Part shown: positions 26,420-37,249 of the stretch, piece by piece
Position numbering within the stretch: position 1 is the first letter of the stretch
Layout: every line of letters starts with the position of its first letter
DNA from: Candidatus Polarisedimenticolia bacterium
Lineage (GTDB): Bacteria > Acidobacteriota > Polarisedimenticolia > Gp22-AA2 > AA152
Assembly: GCA_036004685.1 (NCBI GenBank)
Contig: DASYRE010000026.1
Coordinates: 1-45,771 of the forward strand
Reading direction: 5' to 3'
DNA: 45,771 bases
The notes under the pieces: model-generated
Database searches by the model: none
Told to the model about the DNA's origin: nothing
What the model saw: only the letters and a program-made list of their open reading frames with translations
Program-made: the position numbers and the translations under genes

Positions 26420-27964
26420 TCCGAAAATCCTCGGCGGCCAGATTCCCGGATCCTCTCCCTCGGGACCGAGAAGCGCCCGCGCCAGGTCCTTCGACCGGAA
26501 GCCGTCGGTGTCGGCGGCGCGCCCGTAGAGGGATCGCGCTTCCGATCTCCGCCCAAGGGCGAGAAGGCTTCTTCCCAGGTAGAGATCCCGCCATCCGACG
26601 ACCCATCCGGGCGCCGCGCCCCCCCCCGAGGCCGGGATCCCGCGAAGCGCCGTCTCCGCTTCCTTCCACTTCCGCTGCTCGAAGAGGGCCCGTGCCTGGT
26701 GCAGGCGGATTTCGGGCGAGCCGGGATGGAGCTTCGCGGCTTCCCCGAGGAGCCGGAGCGCCCCGTCCCACTGGTTCGTCTCCATCATCTTGAGGGCCGG
26801 ATCGATGCTGCGGGCGACCTCGCCGGAGGATTCCGCCGCGCCATACTGTTTTTTCAGCGCGGCGGCCTCGTCCGTCGTGACGCCCAGCGCGGCGTAGATC
26901 TTCTGCAGGCGGCGCGCGTCCCCGAGGCGCGTCGAGGCCCGCGTGGCCACCGCCAGGGCCCGAGCGCGGAATTCCGGCGGAACCTCTTCTCCATTCAGCG
27001 CCGTTTCCAGCTCGTCCAGCGCCTCCGGGCAGCGCAGCGCCAAGTCGAGGCTGTCGGAGAGCAGGATCCGCGACAGCCGCCCCAATTCCGAGCGATCGCG
27101 ATCGGAGGAGGTGCGGCTGACCCGCACGGCGCGCCTCAGGGTGGCCTGCGCCTCCGGGTAGCGGCCCAGACGGATCTCCAGCTCGCCGAGGCTCATCAGC
27201 ATGACCGGAGAATCGGGATTCAGCGCCAGCGCCGCTCGCAGCTCTTCCAGCGATTTCCGGTACCGGCGTTCGTGACGCCCCTGGTAGATGATGGCGAGGA
27301 GGAGGTGCGCCTCGGTCCGAAAATAGCGCCCGCGGGACGCCACTTCCTGGAGCTGGGCCAGACCCATCTCGCTGTTCCCTCCCGGAAGGAACATCATGGT
27401 CCGCAGGCCCTTGACCAGGGCGTTCACCTTGTCGGCGTAATAGTTGTAGGCCCCCAGCCCGAAGCGCGAATCGATCAGCTCCGGGTTCGATCGCAGCGCC
27501 TCCTCCAGGAGGGACTTCCCCTTCTTCGCTGCGACGGCGGCGCGAAACACCTTCCGTTGGGCGGCGCGGTATTGCGCCAAGAAGATGTAGCTGGTGCCCA
27601 GGTTCGCCAGCGTCTCGGGGTCCCCGGGAGCCTCCTGCAGCTTCTCCTGGGAGAGCCGGATCGCTTCCTGCAGCTGCAGCTCCATCGAGGGGCTCTCGCC
27701 GACGCCGCGGAGCTGCAGCAGCTTCCACCACTCGGCGAAGGCGAGGAAGAGAGGACCGCGGGGATCCTGCGGGGATCGTTCGGCGAACTCGCGGAAGCGG
27801 CTCTGCCCTTCGGTGAAGCGTCCCTGGTGCAGGGCCGAGAGCCCTTCGAGCAGCTGCGCGTCGGGGGGCCCGCCCAGGCCGCCCGCGGCCGCCGGGGACC
27901 CGGTGGCGGAGGCGGCGACGCCGCAGGACAGCCCAAGCAGGATCGATGCAACGAATCGCTTCAT
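26309..27964 (-). CDS. Exported TPR-repeat protein
   Basis: A 551-residue protein with an N-terminal signal peptide ([22 protein letters not shown]; no strict lipobox). Tetratricopeptide-like helix pairs fill the rest: [64 protein letters not shown] (in part), [25 protein letters not shown] (in part), [22 protein letters not shown]. Segment [26 protein letters not shown] is not TPR-like. ATG 27964 is used; GGGAGGA lies 15 nt away, a long spacing. The frame runs 111 nt into the opposite-strand transglycosylase; the last roughly 36 residues (after [12 protein letters not shown]) may be simple read-over. A periplasmic scaffold is likely; the partner is unknown. Confidence 0.85.
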
Positions 27965-28084
27965 GCGATGCTCTTGAATTCCTCCCTGGCGCGACTTTGT
28001 AATATACCATGCGCCCCGCGCCGGGCCGGCGGGTTGACTTCCTTCCGACGCTCCCCCCATCATGGCGGCATTCGCGGAGCGGGA

Positions 28085-28804
28085 ATGCCACCTTTCGACG
28101 CCGTTCTCTTCGATCTCTTCGACACGCTTTGCCATCTCGATGCCGGGCCCTACCTGGAAGGAAAGCGGCGCTCGGCGCGCGCGCTCGGCCTCGACCCCGA
28201 GCGCTACTTTCAGGCCTGGCTGTCGCTCCAGGACCGCTGCCAGGTCGGAGCCCTGCTCGGAGTCGAGGCGCGGATCCGCGAGTCCTGCGCTCTTCTGGGA
28301 CGCGGGATCACCGCCCGCGAGCTCGACGAGATCCGTGGCCTCGAAGAGGAGGCGCTGCGCGCGTCGGCCCGCCTCCACGCCGACGTCGTCCCCACGCTCG
28401 TGTCGATGCGCGCCCGCGCCGGGCTGAAGCTCGCCCTGGTGAGCAACGCGTCGAGCCCGGCCCGCGAGCTCACCCGCCGCCTGGGGCTCGACCCCTTTTT
28501 CGACACCCTCGTCTACTCGTTCGAGATCGGCTCCATGAAGCCGCAGGCCCCGATCTATCTCGCCGCCTGCGACCGCTTGAGCGTCTCCCCGGAGGCCTGC
28601 CTGTTCGTCGGAGACGGCAACGACCGCGAGCTGGAGGGGGCGATCGAGCTGGGGATGACCGCGATCCGGATCGAGCGGCCGGACGCCATGGAGCACTATC
28701 GCCGGCACCCCAGCGACCGCTGGGATCACTCCGTCCGGAATCTCGGGGAGATCGCCCGCCTGCTCGAAGACCGTCAATTCTCCGCCGGAGAGTCCATTTC
28801 CTGA
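28085..28804 (+). CDS. HAD-family hydrolase
   Basis: A 239-residue haloacid dehalogenase-like phosphatase. Motif I is DLFDTL (nucleophile Asp in FDLFDTLCHLD), motif II Ser in LVSNASS, motif III Lys in SMKPQAPIY, motif IV GDGNDREL. The cap is the small helical type after motif I. Such enzymes hydrolyse small phosphate esters; the substrate cannot be told. Transcribed away from the TPR gene across a 120-nt gap, which holds a possible minus-strand -10 (TATATT) but no good -35. Confidence 0.88.
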   Translation: MPPFDAVLFDLFDTLCHLDAGPYLEGKRRSARALGLDPERYFQAWLSLQDRCQVGALLGVEARIRESCALLGRGITARELDEIRGLEEEALRASARLHADVVPTLVSMRARAGLKLALVSNASSPARELTRRLGLDPFFDTLVYSFEIGSMKPQAPIYLAACDRLSVSPEACLFVGDGNDRELEGAIELGMTAIRIERPDAMEHYRRHPSDRWDHSVRNLGEIARLLEDRQFSAGESIS

Positions 28805-28950
28805 CTGGGAAGCGCGGCGGCCTCTCCGTTACATTTCGCGGCGTCCATTTCTTGGCAAGGCCCTCACGGGACCGTAAATCGTCCTTCCTCGAGACGCCTT
28901 CGCATTCCCGGCAAACCACTTAGAAATCCGCGCCGCGAGTGTCCAGACTC
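28805..28950. other. Intergenic region upstream of the sigma-54 promoter
   Basis: No gene is supported between the HAD hydrolase and the NtrC-family regulator (28805-29068). This part would hold upstream activator sites; I saw no clear long inverted repeat here except the 13-bp palindrome TCCAGACTCTGGA at 28942-28954, which runs into the -24 box. Confidence 0.3.
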
Positions 28951-28966
28951 TGGAACACTTCTTGCT
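28951..28966 (+). promoter_or_regulatory. Predicted sigma-54 (-24/-12) promoter
   Basis: TGGAACACTTCTTGCT matches the RpoN consensus (TGGCACG-N4-TTGCW): the GG and GC doublets are exactly 10 nt apart and TTGCT is intact. A start near 28977 would give a 90-nt leader before the NtrC-family activator, hence possible self-activation. The palindrome at 28942-28954 overlaps the -24 element and could be a repressor or activator site. Confidence 0.6.
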
Positions 28967-29068
28967 CAAAACCGCGACAGCCCGGTCCGGTCCCGGGTTC
29001 GGCGCGTTCGGAAATAGAAGCGTTCTCGGCGGAGCTCCGGAGAGGCTCTCCGGAAGAAAGGACTGGAC

Positions 29069-30481
29069 ATGGATTCGAGTCTCGCGGCGCAGGCGAGGAT
29101 TTTGATGATCACCTCGAACGAAGGGCTCGGCAGCGCTCTGTCGGGCGTCCTCACCCGAAGGGGCTGCCAGGTAGCCGTCGCGCCGGGAGGCGCCGAGGGT
29201 TTGAGGAAGGCGGAGTCGCGAGCCTACGATCTCGTCCTGCTCGATCTCTCCCTGAACGATATGGGGCCGCTGGAGCTCCTGTCGCGCACCAAGGAGGCCA
29301 GTCCCCAGAGCCCCGTCTTCATGGTGGCCACGTCGCCCTCGGTGGAGTCGGCGGTGGAAGCCCTGCGGCGCGGCGCCTACGACTACCTGATCTGGCCGGT
29401 GCCCGAAGAGGAGCTCATCCGGAGGGTGGAGAGCGCCCTGCAGGTGCGGCGGCTCGGGGAAGTGAGGCGGCGCACGGCGGAAGAGCTCCAGCACGAGAAG
29501 GTGAGGAATCTCGAGTTGCGGCGCGATCTCCAGGCGCGCTACGGCTTCGCGGCGATTTTGGGGAAGAGCCAGAAGATGAAGCAGATTCACGACCTGGTCC
29601 TGGAGATCACGCGCAGCGATTCCACCGTGCTGATCCAGGGAGAAAGCGGCACCGGCAAGGGGCTCATCTCGCGGATCATCCACTACAACAGCCAGCGCTG
29701 CGACAAGCCGTTCGTGGAGGCGAACTGCGCGATCTATTCGGAGGGAGTTCTGCACAGCGAGCTCTTCGGCCATGAAAAGGGGGCCTTCACCGGGGCGGTG
29801 AAGCAGAAGCGGGGACGCTTCGAGCTCGCCGACGGAGGCACCATCTTCCTGGATGAAATCGCCGAGCTTCCGCCGGCGACGCAGCTCACCCTCCTGCGCT
29901 TCCTGCAGGAGAGGAAGTTCGAGCGCGTGGGCGGAGAGGAGACGCTGCTGGTGGACGTGCGGGTGGTCGCGGCCACCAACAAGAACCTCGCCGAGAACAT
30001 GGAGAAGGGGACCTTTCGAAACGATCTCTACTATCGCCTGAACGTGATTCCGATCTTCATTCCGCCGCTGCGCGAGCGCAGCGAGGACATCCCGCTGCTC
30101 GCGTCGCGCTTCCTGGAGGAATGCGCGCGCAAGATGGGGAAGTCGTTCCAGGGCTTTTCGGACGAGGCGCTCCAGACGTTCATGGACTACAGCTGGCCGG
30201 GGAACGTTCGGGAGATGGAGAACGCGATCGAGCGCTCGGTGGTCCTGGCCAAGGGGGATCTGATCACCCTCGCCGATCTGCCCGCGAACCTCAAGGAGAT
30301 CCGCGAGGAGCGCGGCGACATGAAGCTGTCGCTCTACGAGAACGAGCGTCTCTACATCCTCAAGACGCTGGCGGAGTGCAACTGGAACAAGAAGCTGACC
30401 GCCTCGGTGCTGGGGATCAATCGATCGAGCCTCTACAGCAAGCTGAAGAAATACGGCATCGGGGCCGAGTCCGCCAATTGA
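29069..30481 (+). CDS. NtrC-family sigma-54 activator with degenerate receiver
   Basis: A 470-residue transcription activator in three parts. Residues 10-125 are a receiver fold (YDLVLLDLSLNDM) keeping the phospho-acceptor Asp59, but the acidic pair normally at the strand-1 end is Thr15-Ser16, and the conserved Lys before Pro is Trp109. Residues about 160-395 are the AAA+ domain: Walker A GESGTGKG (191-198), GAFTGA (238-243) that contacts sigma-54, Walker B GGTIFLDEI (256-264), and FRNDLYYRLNV. Residues about 425-465 are a Fis-type helix-turn-helix (LTASVLGINRSSLYSKLKKYGI in part). GAFTGA shows it works with RpoN. The lost residues suggest it is not controlled by ordinary phosphorylation. Two kinase genes follow. 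Confidence 0.95.
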   Translation: MDSSLAAQARILMITSNEGLGSALSGVLTRRGCQVAVAPGGAEGLRKAESRAYDLVLLDLSLNDMGPLELLSRTKEASPQSPVFMVATSPSVESAVEALRRGAYDYLIWPVPEEELIRRVESALQVRRLGEVRRRTAEELQHEKVRNLELRRDLQARYGFAAILGKSQKMKQIHDLVLEITRSDSTVLIQGESGTGKGLISRIIHYNSQRCDKPFVEANCAIYSEGVLHSELFGHEKGAFTGAVKQKRGRFELADGGTIFLDEIAELPPATQLTLLRFLQERKFERVGGEETLLVDVRVVAATNKNLAENMEKGTFRNDLYYRLNVIPIFIPPLRERSEDIPLLASRFLEECARKMGKSFQGFSDEALQTFMDYSWPGNVREMENAIERSVVLAKGDLITLADLPANLKEIREERGDMKLSLYENERLYILKTLAECNWNKKLTASVLGINRSSLYSKLKKYGIGAESAN

Positions 30482-30521: not shown

Positions 30522-32558
30522 ATGAACCCTCCCAGCGAATCGCCCCCCGACCCCCCGGCCCCGCGAAGCGGCCTGGCGGTCTCCGGCCGGAGCCTCCTCC
30601 TCGGACCGGCGGCCGACCGGCGCCTCGGCCTCTTCCTCGTCGCGGTCGACGGCACGGGACTGCTGCTCGCCGCGCTCTCCCTGTTCCATGGGGGCCTCCT
30701 CCTGACGCCGGAGTTCCTGATCCTGGCCGTGATCACGGCGGTCGTGGCGCCCCAGTCCGTCCGCATCGGCATGCGCATGGAGATGAGCGCGTTCCACCCT
30801 TTCATCCTCACCGCCATGATCCTCCTCGGGCTGAACGCCTCTCTGGTGATCTCCTGCGTCGCGATCGGCTCGATGGGACTGTTCCACCGGCCCCGATGGG
30901 AGCCGTTCCGCTTCCTCTTCAACCTGAGCGCCTTCATGATCACCACCTGGGTCACCTGCCAGGTCTACTTCGCCGCCGGCGGCACGGTGGGACACATGGC
31001 CACCGAGAGCGACCTGCCCGGGCTCATGCTGGCCACGCTGGCGTTCTATCTCATGAACACCGTCCTCGTCGCCGGCGTCGTCGCGGTCTCGTCGCGCCTG
31101 TCGCTGGCGCGGGTGTGGCGGGAGAAGTACCTATGGTCCGCCCCCAGCTACTTCGCCGGAGGGGCGCTGGCGATCCTGATGGGCACCCTGGTCCGCAAGT
31201 ACGGGATCTACAGCCTGGTCCTCTGCCTGCCTTTCTCCGTCCTCATCTATTACTCCTACCGGCTCTACGTGGAGAAGATGGAGGAGAAGCAGCGGCACCT
31301 GGAGGACATCGAGAAGCTGAACCTCGACCTGGAGCGGAAGGTTCGCGAGCGCACCCAGGAGCTGGAGATCCTCAACCAGAAGCTCAAGGAGTCGAACACC
31401 GAGCTGCTGCGCGCCAACAACCTGAAAAGCGAGTTCCTCGCGAACATGTCGCACGAGCTGCGCACCCCGCTGAACGCCGTGATCGGCTTCTCCGAGCTCC
31501 TGCTCGATCCCGGCTACGGCGACCTGAACCAGGATCAGCGCGAGTACGTCGCCGACATCCTCTCCAGCGGGCGCCATCTCCTCGAGCTGATCAACGACAT
31601 CCTGGATCTCTCCAAGATCGAGGCGGGGAAGATGCGTCTCGCCCTGGACGAGTTCGACCTCTCCCTCGCGGCGGAGGAGGCGCTGATGACCCTCCGCGTG
31701 GACGCCGACCGCAAGCAGATCGCCCTGGAGGCGCGGCTCGATCCCGCCGTCCCCTCGGTGCGGGCCGACCGCGGCAAGTTCAAGCAGATCCTGACGAACC
31801 TTCTGTCCAACGCCGTCAAGTTCACCCCGGCTGGAGGGAGAGTCTCTCTGTCCACGGCGCGCGAAGGAAGCGCCCTGCGCGTTTCGGTCGAGGACACGGG
31901 AATCGGGATCCGCCCCGAAGATCAGGCGAGGATCTTCGCCGCCTTCATCCAGGTCGACGGCTCCTACGCGCGCAAGTACCAGGGAACGGGGCTCGGCCTG
32001 ACGCTCGTCAAGCGCTTCGTCGAGATGCACGGCGGAGAGATCGTCGTCACGAGCGAAGTGGGCAAGGGAAGCACGTTCACCTTCCGGCTTCCCCTCGCGC
32101 CGCGGGCCGCCACCGCGGCGATCTCGGCGCCGCCCGCGCTGGCCGCCGTCCCCGCCGCCCGGGAATCGCTGATCGTGTCGGAGGGGCCCGGGGATCTGAT
32201 CCTGGTCGTGGAGGACAACCCGGCCAACCTGAAGCTGGTGCGGGAGGTCCTGAAGGGACGCGGCTACCGCGTCCTCGAGGCCACGAGCGGGGAGGAGGCG
32301 CTCGACGCGCTCAAGTTCATCCATCCCGATCTCATCCTGATGGACATCCAGCTGCCGGGGATGGACGGGCTCACCGTCACGCGCCGGCTGAAACGGGACC
32401 CGGCGACGCGGGACATTCCGACGATCGCCCTGACGGCCCACGCGATGAAGCGCGACGAAGCGAGAGTCCTCGAGGCGGGCTGCGCCGGCTACATCCCGAA
32501 GCCGATCGATACCGTGAACTTCCCGAAGCAGGTCGCCGATTATCTTCGGCGGAACTGA
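30522..32558 (+). CDS. Membrane-bound hybrid histidine kinase
   Basis: A 678-residue hybrid kinase. Residues about 34-250 form a multi-helix membrane sensor (about seven hydrophobic segments, e.g. LGLFLVAVDGTGLLLAALSL, FLILAVITAVV, LMLATLAFYLMNTVLVAGVV, YGIYSLVLCLPFSVLIYYSY) with no periplasmic domain of note. A coiled coil follows (residues about 258-300, DLERKVRERTQELEIL), then HisKA with phospho-acceptor His311 in MSHELRTPLNAVIGFSE, HATPase (ILTNLLSNAVKFT, VEDTGIGI, GTGLGL) and a C-terminal receiver with Asp608 in LMDIQLPGMDG. The gene lies 40 nt after the activator and 9 nt before the next kinase. The signal sensed is unknown. Confidence 0.94.
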   Translation: MNPPSESPPDPPAPRSGLAVSGRSLLLGPAADRRLGLFLVAVDGTGLLLAALSLFHGGLLLTPEFLILAVITAVVAPQSVRIGMRMEMSAFHPFILTAMILLGLNASLVISCVAIGSMGLFHRPRWEPFRFLFNLSAFMITTWVTCQVYFAAGGTVGHMATESDLPGLMLATLAFYLMNTVLVAGVVAVSSRLSLARVWREKYLWSAPSYFAGGALAILMGTLVRKYGIYSLVLCLPFSVLIYYSYRLYVEKMEEKQRHLEDIEKLNLDLERKVRERTQELEILNQKLKESNTELLRANNLKSEFLANMSHELRTPLNAVIGFSELLLDPGYGDLNQDQREYVADILSSGRHLLELINDILDLSKIEAGKMRLALDEFDLSLAAEEALMTLRVDADRKQIALEARLDPAVPSVRADRGKFKQILTNLLSNAVKFTPAGGRVSLSTAREGSALRVSVEDTGIGIRPEDQARIFAAFIQVDGSYARKYQGTGLGLTLVKRFVEMHGGEIVVTSEVGKGSTFTFRLPLAPRAATAAISAPPALAAVPAARESLIVSEGPGDLILVVEDNPANLKLVREVLKGRGYRVLEATSGEEALDALKFIHPDLILMDIQLPGMDGLTVTRRLKRDPATRDIPTIALTAHAMKRDEARVLEAGCAGYIPKPIDTVNFPKQVADYLRRN

Positions 32559-32567
32559 GGAGACGAC

Positions 32568-33749
32568 ATGAGCGAGCCTTCCAAGATTCTCGTGGTGGAC
32601 GACGACGAGCGCAACGTTCGGCTGCTGGAGTCGATCCTCCGGGCCAGCGGCTACCCGGTGATCAAGGCCTACGACGGGCAGGAGGCGCTGGACTTGATCG
32701 CCTCCGAGCGGCCCGATCTCGTCCTGCTGGACGTGATGATGCCGCGCATGAGCGGACTGGAGGTCTGCCAGAAGGTGCGGGGCCAGTACGAGACGAGGCT
32801 CCTGCCCGTGATCATGGTGACCGCCCTCAACGCGCTGGAGGAGAAGGTGCAGGCCCTGGAGATGGGCGCCGACGACTTCCTGTCGAAGCCGATCAACAAG
32901 GTGGAGCTTCTCGCCAAGCTCCGTTCCATGCTCCGCGTGAAGTCGCTGCACGACGAAGTCGAGCGGACCCGGCGGGAGCTGGAGCGCAAGAACGAGGATC
33001 TCCTGAGGATGGAGGAGTTCAAGGAGAAGCTGATCCAGATGGTCGTCCATGACCTGAAGAACCCGCTGGCCGGAATCATGGGGAACCTCCAGCTCCTGAG
33101 GCTCCAGGATCCGGCGCAGGACGCGGGCCACCTGCAGGAGATCGTCGGCCGCACCGAGGAAAGCGCCAAGCAGCTGATGGAGATGATCCTGAACATCCTC
33201 GACCTCGCCCGTCTCGAGGAGGGGAAGCTGGAGATTCGCCGCAAGCCGGTCCATCCGCCGGAGCTGGCCCAGAGCTGCCTGAGGCAGGTAGCGGGGATGG
33301 CGGCCCGCGCCGAGGTCCGGCTGGTCGCCGCGCTCGAGGGCGCGCCCGGCGTCCTCCAGGCCGATCCCGTGCTGCTGTCGCGCATCCTCGGAAATCTCCT
33401 GAGCAACGCGCTCAAGCACACGCCCGCCGGCGGGAAGATCGAGGTGGGAGTCGCCCGCGAGGGCGATACGGCCCGGTTTTGGGTGAAGGACAGCGGGGAG
33501 GGGATTCCGCCCAACCTGCTGCCGCGGATCTTCGACAAGTTCGTCGTGGGAACCGGGGATCACCAAATGCGCCGCGCTTACGACACGGGGCTCGGACTCA
33601 CTTTCTGCAAGATGGCCATCGAGGCTCACGGTGGGAGAATCGGCGTCGAGAGCGAGCCCGGGCGCGGCAGCACGTTCTCCTTCTCCCTGCCCATGACCCT
33701 CCCCGTGGAAGGAGTGAGGCCGCTGAAGCCGGAGGGGCCCGCGCAATGA
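32568..33749 (+). CDS. Receiver-histidine kinase fusion protein
   Basis: A 393-residue soluble protein with an N-terminal receiver and a C-terminal kinase. The receiver is complete: DDD acidic pocket at 11-13, Asp55 in LVLLDVMMPRMSG, Thr85 in IMVTAL, Lys107 in LSKPIN. A coiled-coil link (VERTRRELERKNEDLLRMEE) leads to HisKA with His161 in VHDLKNPLAGI and HATPase motifs NLLSNALKH, DSGEGIPP and TGLGLTFCK. The layout suits a phosphorelay intermediate: a partner kinase, probably the hybrid kinase upstream, phosphorylates Asp55 and alters the kinase part. No DNA-binding domain is present. Confidence 0.94.
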   Translation: MSEPSKILVVDDDERNVRLLESILRASGYPVIKAYDGQEALDLIASERPDLVLLDVMMPRMSGLEVCQKVRGQYETRLLPVIMVTALNALEEKVQALEMGADDFLSKPINKVELLAKLRSMLRVKSLHDEVERTRRELERKNEDLLRMEEFKEKLIQMVVHDLKNPLAGIMGNLQLLRLQDPAQDAGHLQEIVGRTEESAKQLMEMILNILDLARLEEGKLEIRRKPVHPPELAQSCLRQVAGMAARAEVRLVAALEGAPGVLQADPVLLSRILGNLLSNALKHTPAGGKIEVGVAREGDTARFWVKDSGEGIPPNLLPRIFDKFVVGTGDHQMRRAYDTGLGLTFCKMAIEAHGGRIGVESEPGRGSTFSFSLPMTLPVEGVRPLKPEGPAQ

Positions 33750-33870: not shown

Positions 33871-35367
33871 ATGAACGGCTCCTTTGTCCCTTCCCGGCTG
33901 GCTGAAGTTCTCCGCGATCTCTTCCTCTCCGAGCGCAGCGGCATCCTCAGCCTGTCCCGCACGGGCGTCCGCAAGCGCATCTACTGGGACCGCGGGATGA
34001 TTTTCTTCGCGGAGTCGACCCTGGAGGACGAGGGTCTGATCGATTTTCTCGTCCACGAGCGCTGCCTCGAAATGGCCGAGGCGGCCCGCGTGCCCGGAGG
34101 AAGGGGAGACGACCTCGCCCTGGCCCGCCGGCTGAAGGAATCGGGCCCGGTCGGCGCCGAGGACCTGGGCCGCGCCGTCCGGCAGCTCATCCTCCAGGTC
34201 GTGGTCTCCCCGTTCCGCTGGGATTCCGGCGAGTTCACCTTCCAGGAAACTCCGCCCGGCGGGGCGGACGTCTTTCCCAGCGACGTCCTCCTGACGTTCG
34301 AGTTCCTGATGCGCGGCATCCGCTCGATGAGCGGCTTCACCCCGATCCGGGACGCGATGCTGCGCCTCGACCGTCCCCTGAAGATGAGCGAGAACCTCTA
34401 CCTGCCGCTGGATCGGCTCGCCCTGCACCCGGTCCAAGGGTTCGCCCTGTCGCGCGTCGACGGATCGACTCGCATTCGCGAGATTGCCTCCCTCATCCCG
34501 CCGTCGGAGGAGGACACGGCGCTGCGCTTCCTGTTCGGCCTGCTGCTGCTGAACATCGTCGAGCTGAACCCCCCGTTCGCTCCGGGAGCCCTGGCGGTCA
34601 ACGATCTGCTCTCCGGCGACCGCGAGCGCAAGGAGCGCTACGAGCGGGAATCGGCGGTGATCAAGGAGATGTACCGGGCCACCTCCTCGAACGTGCCGCT
34701 CGAAATCCTGAGTCTCGGGGCCAACGCGGGCCCGGAAGAGATTCGCAAGGCGTACGAGACCCGCAAGGACGCCTTCCGGCCCGAGCGCTTCCTGAAGAAG
34801 ATTCAGGAAGCCTACCGCGAGGAGCTCCTGCTCATCGAAGGAAAGCTCCTGGAGGCTTATCTGGCCTTGGGACAGAACCAGGTGCGCTCCGCCAGCCAGG
34901 GAGCCTCCCCCGGGGAGACGAAGCTGGACATGGAGGTCGTCGGCAAGCGGAAGGAGCTGTCGAAGACCCAGACCCAGGAGCACGTAGAGGAGCAGATCCG
35001 CCGCGCCGAGCAGTTCTACCTGAAGGCTCGCGAGTACTTCAAATCGAAGGACTACTACAATACCATCCAGTACTGCGAGCAGGCTCTCAAGGGAAACGAC
35101 GCCGACGCGCGGTATCATTTCCTCCTGGGCCAGACTCTCGCCCACAACCCCGACTACCGCTGGCAGAAGCGGGCCGAAAGCTGCCTCCAAAGGGCGGCCG
35201 AGCTGGATCCCTGGAACGCCGACCACTTCGTGCAGCTCGGAAACTTCTATCGAGCCCACAATCTGCTTCGCAAGGCGAAGAAGAACTTCATGAGGGCGGC
35301 CGAAGTGATGCCCTCCCATCCCGAGGCGCGCAAGGCGCTCTCCGAAATGAAGCACATCGAAGCCTGA
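33871..35367 (+). CDS. DUF4388 - J-like - TPR protein
   Basis: A 498-residue protein in three parts. Residues 1-130 resemble DUF4388/PATAN-type domains (LAEVLRDLFLSERSGILSLSR, KRIYWDRGMIFFAEST, DEGLIDFLV), found in many delta-proteobacterial and acidobacterial signalling proteins. Residues about 275-335 look like a J-domain (LEILSLGANAGPEEIRKAYE, then KDAFRPERF) whose HPD tripeptide is RPE, so it may not stimulate a DnaK ATPase. Residues about 370-498 form TPRs (AEQFYLKAREYFKSKDYYNTIQYCEQAL in part, RAAELDPWNADHFVQLGNFYRA in part). ATG 33871 was chosen over upstream alternatives for lack of other motifs. It is likely an adaptor of the neighbouring signalling proteins. Confidence 0.87.
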   Translation: MNGSFVPSRLAEVLRDLFLSERSGILSLSRTGVRKRIYWDRGMIFFAESTLEDEGLIDFLVHERCLEMAEAARVPGGRGDDLALARRLKESGPVGAEDLGRAVRQLILQVVVSPFRWDSGEFTFQETPPGGADVFPSDVLLTFEFLMRGIRSMSGFTPIRDAMLRLDRPLKMSENLYLPLDRLALHPVQGFALSRVDGSTRIREIASLIPPSEEDTALRFLFGLLLLNIVELNPPFAPGALAVNDLLSGDRERKERYERESAVIKEMYRATSSNVPLEILSLGANAGPEEIRKAYETRKDAFRPERFLKKIQEAYREELLLIEGKLLEAYLALGQNQVRSASQGASPGETKLDMEVVGKRKELSKTQTQEHVEEQIRRAEQFYLKAREYFKSKDYYNTIQYCEQALKGNDADARYHFLLGQTLAHNPDYRWQKRAESCLQRAAELDPWNADHFVQLGNFYRAHNLLRKAKKNFMRAAEVMPSHPEARKALSEMKHIEA

Positions 35368-35445: not shown

Positions 35446-35973
35446 TTGTTCATTGAAGTCAACAGGATCCCCCCTGAAGGCCTGCGGATTGATCGATCGC
35501 TGAATCTGGATCCCATCGTCCTCGGCGGCGACGTCTCGGCCCCGGTCGGGCCGGCGAGGCTTTCTGGTATGTTCCGCCGCGCGAGGAGGGACGTCGTATT
35601 CAGAGGGACGGTTGAAGCCTCCGTCTCTCTGGCGTGCAGCCGCTGCACCGCCTCCTTCGCACTGCCGGTTTCCGGGAATTGCTACCGCGTCTACCGTCCC
35701 GGTCCCGTGGGTAGGCCCGTCGCCTCCGATCGCGAAATCGACGAAGAGGATCTGGCGGTGACCCCGTACGACGGCGAGCGGATCGACCTCTCCGACATCG
35801 CCCAGGAGCAGATTTACCTGATGATCCCGCTCAAGCCGCTCTGCCGCGACGCCTGCGCCGGGCTCTGCCCGAGCTGCGGCGCCAACCGCAACGTGGCGCC
35901 ATGCGAATGTCCGGATCCCGCCGGTGCGGATCCTTTGACCTTGAAGCTTCCCCTCAAACCTCCGACCCAGTGA
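35446..35973 (+). CDS. yceD: YceD/DUF177-family protein
   Basis: YceD (DUF177) is linked to 23S rRNA metabolism and nearly always precedes rpmF. The 175-residue product shows the family's cysteine motifs: CSRC near residue 65, and [13 protein letters not shown] near 127-140 with a later CEC, which may bind zinc; [19 protein letters not shown] is the conserved core (in part). It starts at TTG 35446 after GGAGGGG, only about 16 nt downstream of the predicted transcription start. Followed by rpmF after 16 nt. Confidence 0.92.
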
Positions 35974-36226: not shown

Positions 36227-37249
36227 ATGGGAGCCACGATCGCCCTGGACGCCATGGGTGGTGACCACGCGCCGGCCAATCCGGTCGCCGGGGCGATTCT
36301 CGCCGCCCGCGAGCTGGGGAGCCGGGTCATCCTGGTGGGACGCCAGGACGAGATCGAGGCAGAGCTGGCGCGCTTCGGGCCGCGCGACCCCTCCCTCACC
36401 ATCGTCCACGCGAGCGAGGTGGTCGGCATGGACGAGGCGCCGGGACTGGCCCTGAGGCGGAAGAAGGACTCCTCGCTGCGGGTCGCCGCGAACCTGGTGC
36501 AGGAGGGCAAGGCGGACGCCCTCGTCTCGGCGGGCAACTCGGGCGCCGTGATGGCCACGGCCATGATCGTCCTCGGGACCGTGGAAGGGGTCGACCGTCC
36601 CGCTCTCGCCGCGGTGGTCCCCAATCTCCGCGGCTATTCCGTCTGGCTGGACGTCGGCGCCAACGTCGACAGCAAGCCCCAGCACATCCATCAATGGGCC
36701 GTCATGGCCCACATCTACGCCCGCAACATCCTGGGAATCGAGACCCCGCGCGTCGGATTGCTGAGCATCGGCGCGGAGGCGGGGAAGGGGAACGACCTGG
36801 TGAAGGAGACCTTCAAGCTCCTGAAGGACTCCGGGCTGAACTTCATCGGGAACGTCGAGGGTCACGACATCTTCAACGGCAACGCCGACGTCATCGTGTG
36901 CGACGGATTCACCGGCAACGTAGCCCTCAAGGTGATCGAGAGCGCCACGGAAACGCTGTTTCATTTCCTCCGGCAGGAGTTCTCGCGGTCCTGGCGCACC
37001 CGCCTCGGCTACCTGCTCTCCCGCCCCGCGTTCAAAGGATTCAAGAAGCGCATCGACTACGCGGAATTCGGCGGGGTGCCCCTGCTGGGCGTCCGGGGGG
37101 CGACGATCATCAGCCACGGGCGCTCGTCGCCGCGCGCCATCCGGAACGCGCTGCGGGTGGCGGGGGAAGTGGTGGATCACCGGGTGAACCAGCAGATCCA
37201 GGATGAAATCCGCAAGGGGTCGCAAGGGATCCAGTCGGTGACCGGATGA
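36227..37249 (+). CDS. plsX: Phosphate acyltransferase PlsX
   Basis: PlsX makes acyl-phosphate from acyl-ACP, the donor for PlsY in phospholipid synthesis, at the inner face of the membrane. The 340-residue product has IALDAMGGDHAP, AGNSGAVMATA, DVGANVDSKPQHI (in part), LSIGAEAGKGNDLVKE and CDGFTGNVALK, all family signatures. It overlaps fabH by 4 nt (ATGA). plsX-fabH coupling is conserved. Confidence 0.97.
   Translation: MGATIALDAMGGDHAPANPVAGAILAARELGSRVILVGRQDEIEAELARFGPRDPSLTIVHASEVVGMDEAPGLALRRKKDSSLRVAANLVQEGKADALVSAGNSGAVMATAMIVLGTVEGVDRPALAAVVPNLRGYSVWLDVGANVDSKPQHIHQWAVMAHIYARNILGIETPRVGLLSIGAEAGKGNDLVKETFKLLKDSGLNFIGNVEGHDIFNGNADVIVCDGFTGNVALKVIESATETLFHFLRQEFSRSWRTRLGYLLSRPAFKGFKKRIDYAEFGGVPLLGVRGATIISHGRSSPRAIRNALRVAGEVVDHRVNQQIQDEIRKGSQGIQSVTG

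Follow-up and report, generated by a model that had tools for sequence, protein, structure and literature searches.

Is the gene for a sigma-54 activator at this locus itself read from a sigma-54 promoter and, if so, which protein switches it on? The window, by which we mean the whole 45,771-nucleotide stretch of DNA analysed here, carries a candidate sigma-54 promoter core, TGGAACACTTCTTGCT (28951-28966, forward strand), upstream of an activator gene that we call act (29069-30481, forward strand). The original prediction held that this core is an RpoN promoter through which the activator drives its own module, and that a palindrome over the -24 box would let a bound regulator block RpoN. Comparison with related genomes strongly supports the promoter and goes against the palindrome as an operator; the self-activation of the module is plausible, with other activators of the genome as possible rivals.

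Conservation of the promoter core

The -24 GG (28952-28953) and the -12 GC (28964-28965) are separated by ten bases, the GG-N10-GC spacing that had been claimed for this site, and the core agrees with the sigma-54 consensus at 10 of 12 positions, with the TGG and TTGC surroundings present. The activator gene lies downstream as predicted, but the distance given for it, 90 nt, is too short: the ATG at 29069 is 102 nt from the end of the 16-mer and about 92 nt from the predicted transcription start. An exact match to TGGNACN5TTGC occurs once in the window against 0.11 expected, and at least one such match arose in 11 of 100 shuffles. Across the genome (3.84 Mb in 62 contigs), the same pattern matches 29 times, against 16 in a reversed control. 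Because this excess is modest, the consensus match alone is suggestive at most, and conviction comes from conservation.

A core of the form TGGAA(C/T)NNTTCTTGCT precedes the orthologous activators in all four genomes of the family and in all seven genomes of the order that include the upstream region, a count that excludes an eighth order genome (G011), whose stretch contains no act start and no match to the pattern. Two of the seven order loci were assigned to act on other grounds, L106 from a 250-residue match at 56% and L098 by eye at a short contig end. Pairwise comparison of the core gives an identity of 0.97 among family members, 0.91 among order members and 0.91 across the two groups. 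The corresponding values are 0.49, 0.49 and 0.27 for the 60 nt upstream of the core, 0.38, 0.40 and 0.29 for the 100 nt before those, and 0.45, 0.66 and 0.37 for the 24 nt downstream. Thus, in these 11 genomes, the 16-mer is 91-97% identical, whereas its surroundings are 27-66% identical. Since related genomes have kept the core almost letter for letter, the promoter is very likely real, and we consider it highly probable that it drives act. A chance match of TGGAACACTTCTTGCT to the consensus, for which one could cite the 47 of 5,000 random 400-nt window pieces not touching the site that score 10 or more (403 of the 5,000 reach 9) and the modest genome-wide excess, is extremely unlikely; that the aligned core is conserved in 11 genomes whose flanking sequences have diverged speaks strongly against it. 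The genome also came through a check for the absence of rpoN: a single rpoN gene lies on the same contig, outside the window, and encodes the activator-interacting (AID), core-binding (CBD) and DNA-binding (DBD) domains.

Weaker sites, which agree with the consensus at 9-10 of 12 positions, precede the activator in five more distant genomes from three further families; here the best upstream match was taken, and a score of 9 is reached by chance in 8% of 400-nt pieces. Their distance to the first residue of the alignment is 48-68 nt for L041, L043, L045 and L049 and 54 nt for L196; at L041, another upstream match scores equally well. When family, order and distant relatives are taken together, a sigma-54 site is found in 16 of the 19 upstream regions examined. 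No site was found upstream in L197 and L201, and the match in L202 falls only inside coding sequence; L201 and L202 may be non-orthologs of act.

The pattern TGGNAYNNTTCTTGCT, which was drawn from these alignments, finds 15 sites, spread over 11 of the 13 genomes searched, where the reversed control has a single match; it added two act promoters (G008 and G010). Four of the 15 sites are not located before act. One of these, on contig C6 of the window's genome, has no clear gene in its context, and the other three lie at a prepilin-like gene (G001), a gene for a small membrane protein (G003) and a gene for a secreted protein (G008). At L104 (G001, contig C194), a prepilin-like gene lies behind TGGAATGCTTCTTGCT, and GGTGTC and GGACACC, which are similar to elements of the act promoter, occur just upstream.

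Sequence elements around the core

The 13-bp palindrome TCCAGACTCTGGA (28942-28954) does overlap the -24 GG, as originally stated. The proposal that it is an operator, at which a bound regulator would exclude RpoN, can draw on its perfect 6-1-6 symmetry across the GG and on its uniqueness, since the whole genome contains no second copy. That single copy, however, leaves no regulon to be recovered by the genome scan that had been suggested for RpoN sites sharing the palindrome. Such repeats are also common: the window contains 30 perfect 6-1-6 inverted repeats (300 when loops of 0-8 are allowed and nested repeats are counted), and 1.8% of all 16-mers overlap one of the former kind and 14% one of the latter. 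In addition, the symmetry is not conserved, as the three family relatives hold 5, 4 and 4 of the six arm pairs; what remains constant in the family is TCCA within GTGTCCA and TGGA within the promoter. The operator was rejected on these conservation and chance counts and is very unlikely. The palindrome most likely arose by chance, with no role that relatives have kept, and the case illustrates how a comparison of four genomes can dispose of a palindrome that the eye has spotted over a promoter.

Two short elements on either side of the core would be better operator candidates than the palindrome. The first, GTGTCC (28939-28944, forward strand), is located just upstream of the -24 box and extends to GTGTCCA in all four family members. 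Of 10 genus representatives, 8 have GTGTC or GACAC in the 150 nt upstream, against 2.92 expected, a count that none of 400 Markov simulations reached, and all seven order members have TTCTGGACAC at the same place. The second is CGACA (28975-28979, forward strand), an instance of (G/C)GACA placed exactly 8 nt after the core, where the transcription start is predicted at about 28976-28977; a start some 12 nt behind the GC is what a sigma-54 promoter would have. The motif occupies this position in 7 of the 10 genus representatives, the exceptions being L034, L043 and L045. Of the 29 matches to TGGNACN5TTGC in the genome, 28 were used and one was set aside for want of an orientation; among the 28, the motif is present at the act promoter and at none of the 27 others. 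Judged by eye, all seven order genomes have a stretch resembling AGGAGG or GGAGG, together with a start codon, within 19-28 nt after GACA.

PilR binds TGTC repeats, and GlrR binds TGTC-N10-GACA. A regulator may clamp the act promoter by using the upstream GTGTC and the (G/C)GACA at the predicted start as its half-sites, and the exact placement of the downstream motif, the enrichment of the upstream one and the identical position of TTCTGGACAC throughout the order all point in this direction. Yet the spacing from half to half varies and some genomes are without an upstream half near the -24 box (both by eye), three loci are without the downstream motif at its usual place, and the GACA motif may merely be a favoured transcript start. 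We put the clamp forward as a tentative and rather doubtful proposal.

The leader of act contains a 19-bp palindrome, TCCGGAGAG-G-CTCTCCGGA (29036-29054), which is longer than the one at the -24 box. It has perfect 9-bp arms around a 1-nt centre, is predicted to form an 8-bp hairpin, and is located just before AAAGGA (29057-29062, forward strand), by eye the likely ribosome-binding site. As a regulatory element it was rejected, because the whole leader folds no better than shuffled sequences (z -0.17) and no matching perfect palindrome was seen by eye in the relatives.

The activator and its upstream element

The GAFTGA activator that had been predicted downstream of the promoter is borne out by domain matches (receiver, Sigma54_activat and HTH_8) and by alignment. 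Act consists of a degenerate receiver, an AAA+ ATPase and a Fis-type helix-turn-helix (HTH), and the GAFTGA loop of the ATPase together with the HTH identifies it as a sigma-54 enhancer-binding protein. The named genomes with a match to it are five metagenome-assembled ones titled Acidobacteria bacterium, two of them labelled gp22, and a Desulfobacterales one, where only residues 140-464 match, at 54%. On the forward strand behind act, domain matches and synteny identify a hybrid histidine kinase (MASE9, HisKA, HATPase and receiver; 30522-32558), a receiver-histidine kinase (receiver, HisKA and HATPase; 32568-33749) and a DUF4388 protein with weak TPR matches below the cut-off (33871-35367); a yceD-family gene (35446-35973) and plsX (36227-37249) follow downstream of the module. 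This order of genes, from the activator to plsX, is kept in the family and the order as far as the stretches reach, and L041 keeps it up to DUF4388. In L043 and L045, the activator is some kilobases away from the kinases. In L042, L044 and L048, both kinases match, and no activator match above the cut-off was found nearby. On the other side of the promoter, the window has one long frame (26699-28804) with an unassigned amino-terminal part and a HAD hydrolase carboxy-terminal part; L033 and L034 match its first part, and the second part is unmatched in the stretch compared.

The HTH of Act is nearly invariant in 10 aligned proteins, and the ATPase is also well kept. In the receiver (29069-29430; compared with loci L032-L040 of the family and the order), both residues of the acidic pair are replaced and the Lys is changed to W or A in all four family members; the acceptor Asp is kept, and the residue after the acidic pair is acidic in three of the four. 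Among five aligned receivers of the order, the acceptor Asp is lost in three (A, N or A) and the Lys in two, and the receivers of L196 and L198 appear more intact by eye. Act thus lacks the full set of acidic pair, Asp and Lys, which we take to be the key positions, that would mark a phosphorylated response regulator of the NtrC type. The degraded receiver counts against a simple phosphorylation of Act by the adjacent kinases, though phosphorylation could still occur, since the window's protein retains the acceptor Asp. An activator whose receiver has decayed while its ATPase, its DNA-binding domain and its promoter are kept raises the concrete question of what turns it on and off.

About 120 nt upstream of the -24 box lies GTTACATTTC (28828-28837, forward strand), a candidate half-site for an upstream activator. 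Among the 5-mers in the 150 nt upstream, counted in one representative from each of 10 genera, GTTAC/GTAAC exceeds expectation the most (9 of 10 representatives against 1.22 expected, reached by none of 400 Markov simulations), in a test that is uncorrected for the number of 5-mers and in which related sequences are not independent; TGTAA, CGTAA and AAATG were likewise reached by no simulation. The distance from the start of TTAC to the core is 122-123 nt in the family and 128-129 nt in the order, and is different in distant relatives; the base ahead of TTAC is G in all but G007, which has ATTAC, and G008, which has CTTAC and a GTTAC elsewhere. The act element has no good mirror half. When the element and the core are searched for together (TTAC-N103-133-TGGNAYN5TTGCW in 13 genomes), 12 genomes have 1-4 matches each, against three control matches in total, and the matches besides act fall at prepilin genes and a membrane protein. 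The pattern GTTACMNTTTC, which is one base longer than GTTACATTTC and misses the window's own element, gave 9 sites in six genomes against 13 in the control, a count that is therefore uninformative about this element. A reading of the upstream GTTACA as a sigma-70 -10 box was also considered and set aside, as no fitting -35 box was seen in the sequences viewed (by eye only).

The same half-site occurs as a perfect dyad, GTTAC-N5-GTAAC, which was searched for in 10 genomes. It is present once each in six of them and twice in G014 (8 sites against 3 in the control; dyad loci L203 at G000:C21:20034-20048, L204-L208 and L210), and none was found in G001-G003, two of which are under 90% complete. 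Seven of the eight dyads are followed, at a distance of 106-118 nt, by a sigma-54-like site that precedes a prepilin-type gene (106-108 nt in six of the 10 genomes and 118 nt in a seventh); the eighth, in G014, has no sigma-54-like prepilin site after it. The dyad is a candidate enhancer for the control of type IV pilins. The prepilin operon has its own kinase nearby as well as an activator, which in the two order relatives checked is 65% identical to the one on contig C21 of the window's genome. Because of this second conserved activator, GTTAC may be read by the C21 activator, by Act, or by both.

Other sigma-54 sites were seen in the order genomes. In seven of them (L111, L112, L114, L118, L127, L135 and L170), a site (TGGTACGYCCCTTGCT in six and GGGCACGCCCCTTGCT in L170) precedes a gene for a membrane protein of about 264 amino acids with a DUF5683-like part. 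Of the six promoters with TGGTACGYCCCTTGCT, five resemble the act promoter of the family in having GGACAC immediately upstream and TTAC at a distance of 122-123 nt from the core. We claim no common regulon of this gene and act, since its three family-level orthologs have no site scoring at least 9 within 500 nt. In L124, L128, L133 and L136, major-pilin-like genes lie behind TGGCATCNNNCTTGCT sigma-54 sites, and the stretch upstream of these is conserved.

From these features we infer where transcription starts, that the promoter is used, where its enhancer lies, which protein acts there and how far the operon extends. RpoN-polymerase would form a closed complex on the -24 and -12 elements, and this complex would be opened through ATP hydrolysis by an activator that loops over from an upstream site, most likely the GTTAC near 28828. 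Transcription would begin near 28976 and would include act and probably the genes behind it. The activator may be another enhancer-binding protein, such as that of the C21 pilus cluster, in which case the promoter would be a step in a cascade and not a loop. The genome has 26 strong matches to the sigma-54 activator domain (and 4 weak ones), so that besides Act there are 25 others that could serve here, a point against self-activation. The dyad before the prepilin sites with its adjoining kinase and activator, and the GTTAC half that act promoters share at a similar distance, also favour an activator from outside the module. On the other hand, G001-G003 keep the GTTAC of act although they are the genomes in which no perfect dyad was found, and the near invariance of Act's HTH over the aligned set also speaks against an outside activator. 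We rate control by another activator as possible, if somewhat improbable.

Act itself is the most likely activator of its own promoter, because its DNA-binding domain and that promoter have been conserved together, the domain almost without change. Such positive self-control is plausible in view of the conserved upstream element, the near-unchanged HTH and known precedent, and, given the promoter, we lean towards it, although the degraded receiver leaves its switch unexplained. A more elaborate scheme would make the locus a self-reinforcing switch, in which a pseudo-receiver activator sustains itself via the GTTAC enhancer, is clamped by a regulator at GTGTC/GACA and is linked through GTTAC to prepilin operons; this scheme is quite unlikely. 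The locus provides, for a lineage that is probably acidobacterial, a sigma-54 promoter backed by evolution, and it exemplifies well a type of control that is already known. Its three conserved elements lend themselves to direct tests in a reporter strain; the features that merit work at the bench are the pseudo-receiver and GACA/GTGTC.

Comparison with known systems

No paper on this locus was recognised among the matches listed for sigma-54 in Acidobacteria or for DUF4388. A survey of sigma-54 regulons mentions the autoregulation of ZraR, and the term 'Acidobacteri' is absent from its main text (PMC12316311). Response regulators with pseudo-receivers, that is, receivers without the key phosphotransfer residues, are treated in general terms in PMC12632262, and the receiver of Act resembles them in this respect.

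In Myxococcus xanthus, according to two reports (PMC6211767, PMC11841059), the NtrC-like regulator NmpR binds GCGCA-N5-TGCGC upstream of a sigma-54 site, in a putative operon with its own gene, and appears to be autoregulatory; its kinase NmpS, a receiver-histidine kinase, phosphorylates the NmpR receiver. The act module is similar to NmpRSTU in that genes for a receiver-histidine kinase and for another kinase accompany that of an NtrC-like regulator, and the N5 geometry of the NmpR site is the same as that of the GTTAC dyad at the prepilin operons. The differences are that the NmpR receiver is phosphorylated by NmpS, whereas that of Act is without key residues; that the half-site is another one; and that the sensor kinase here has a MASE9 domain, while NmpU has a protoglobin. 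In addition, the named relatives here are Acidobacteria, and the likeness to NmpRSTU considered here is one of domain order.

Nla28, also from M. xanthus, is a sigma-54 activator involved in autoregulation that binds half-sites in its own sigma-54-type promoter (PMC9765219). It is thus self-regulated, as proposed for Act, but through another half-site and in a two-gene operon with one kinase. Self-regulated sigma-54 activators such as NmpR and Nla28 are the closest known counterparts of Act, which would work as they do if it binds GTTAC.
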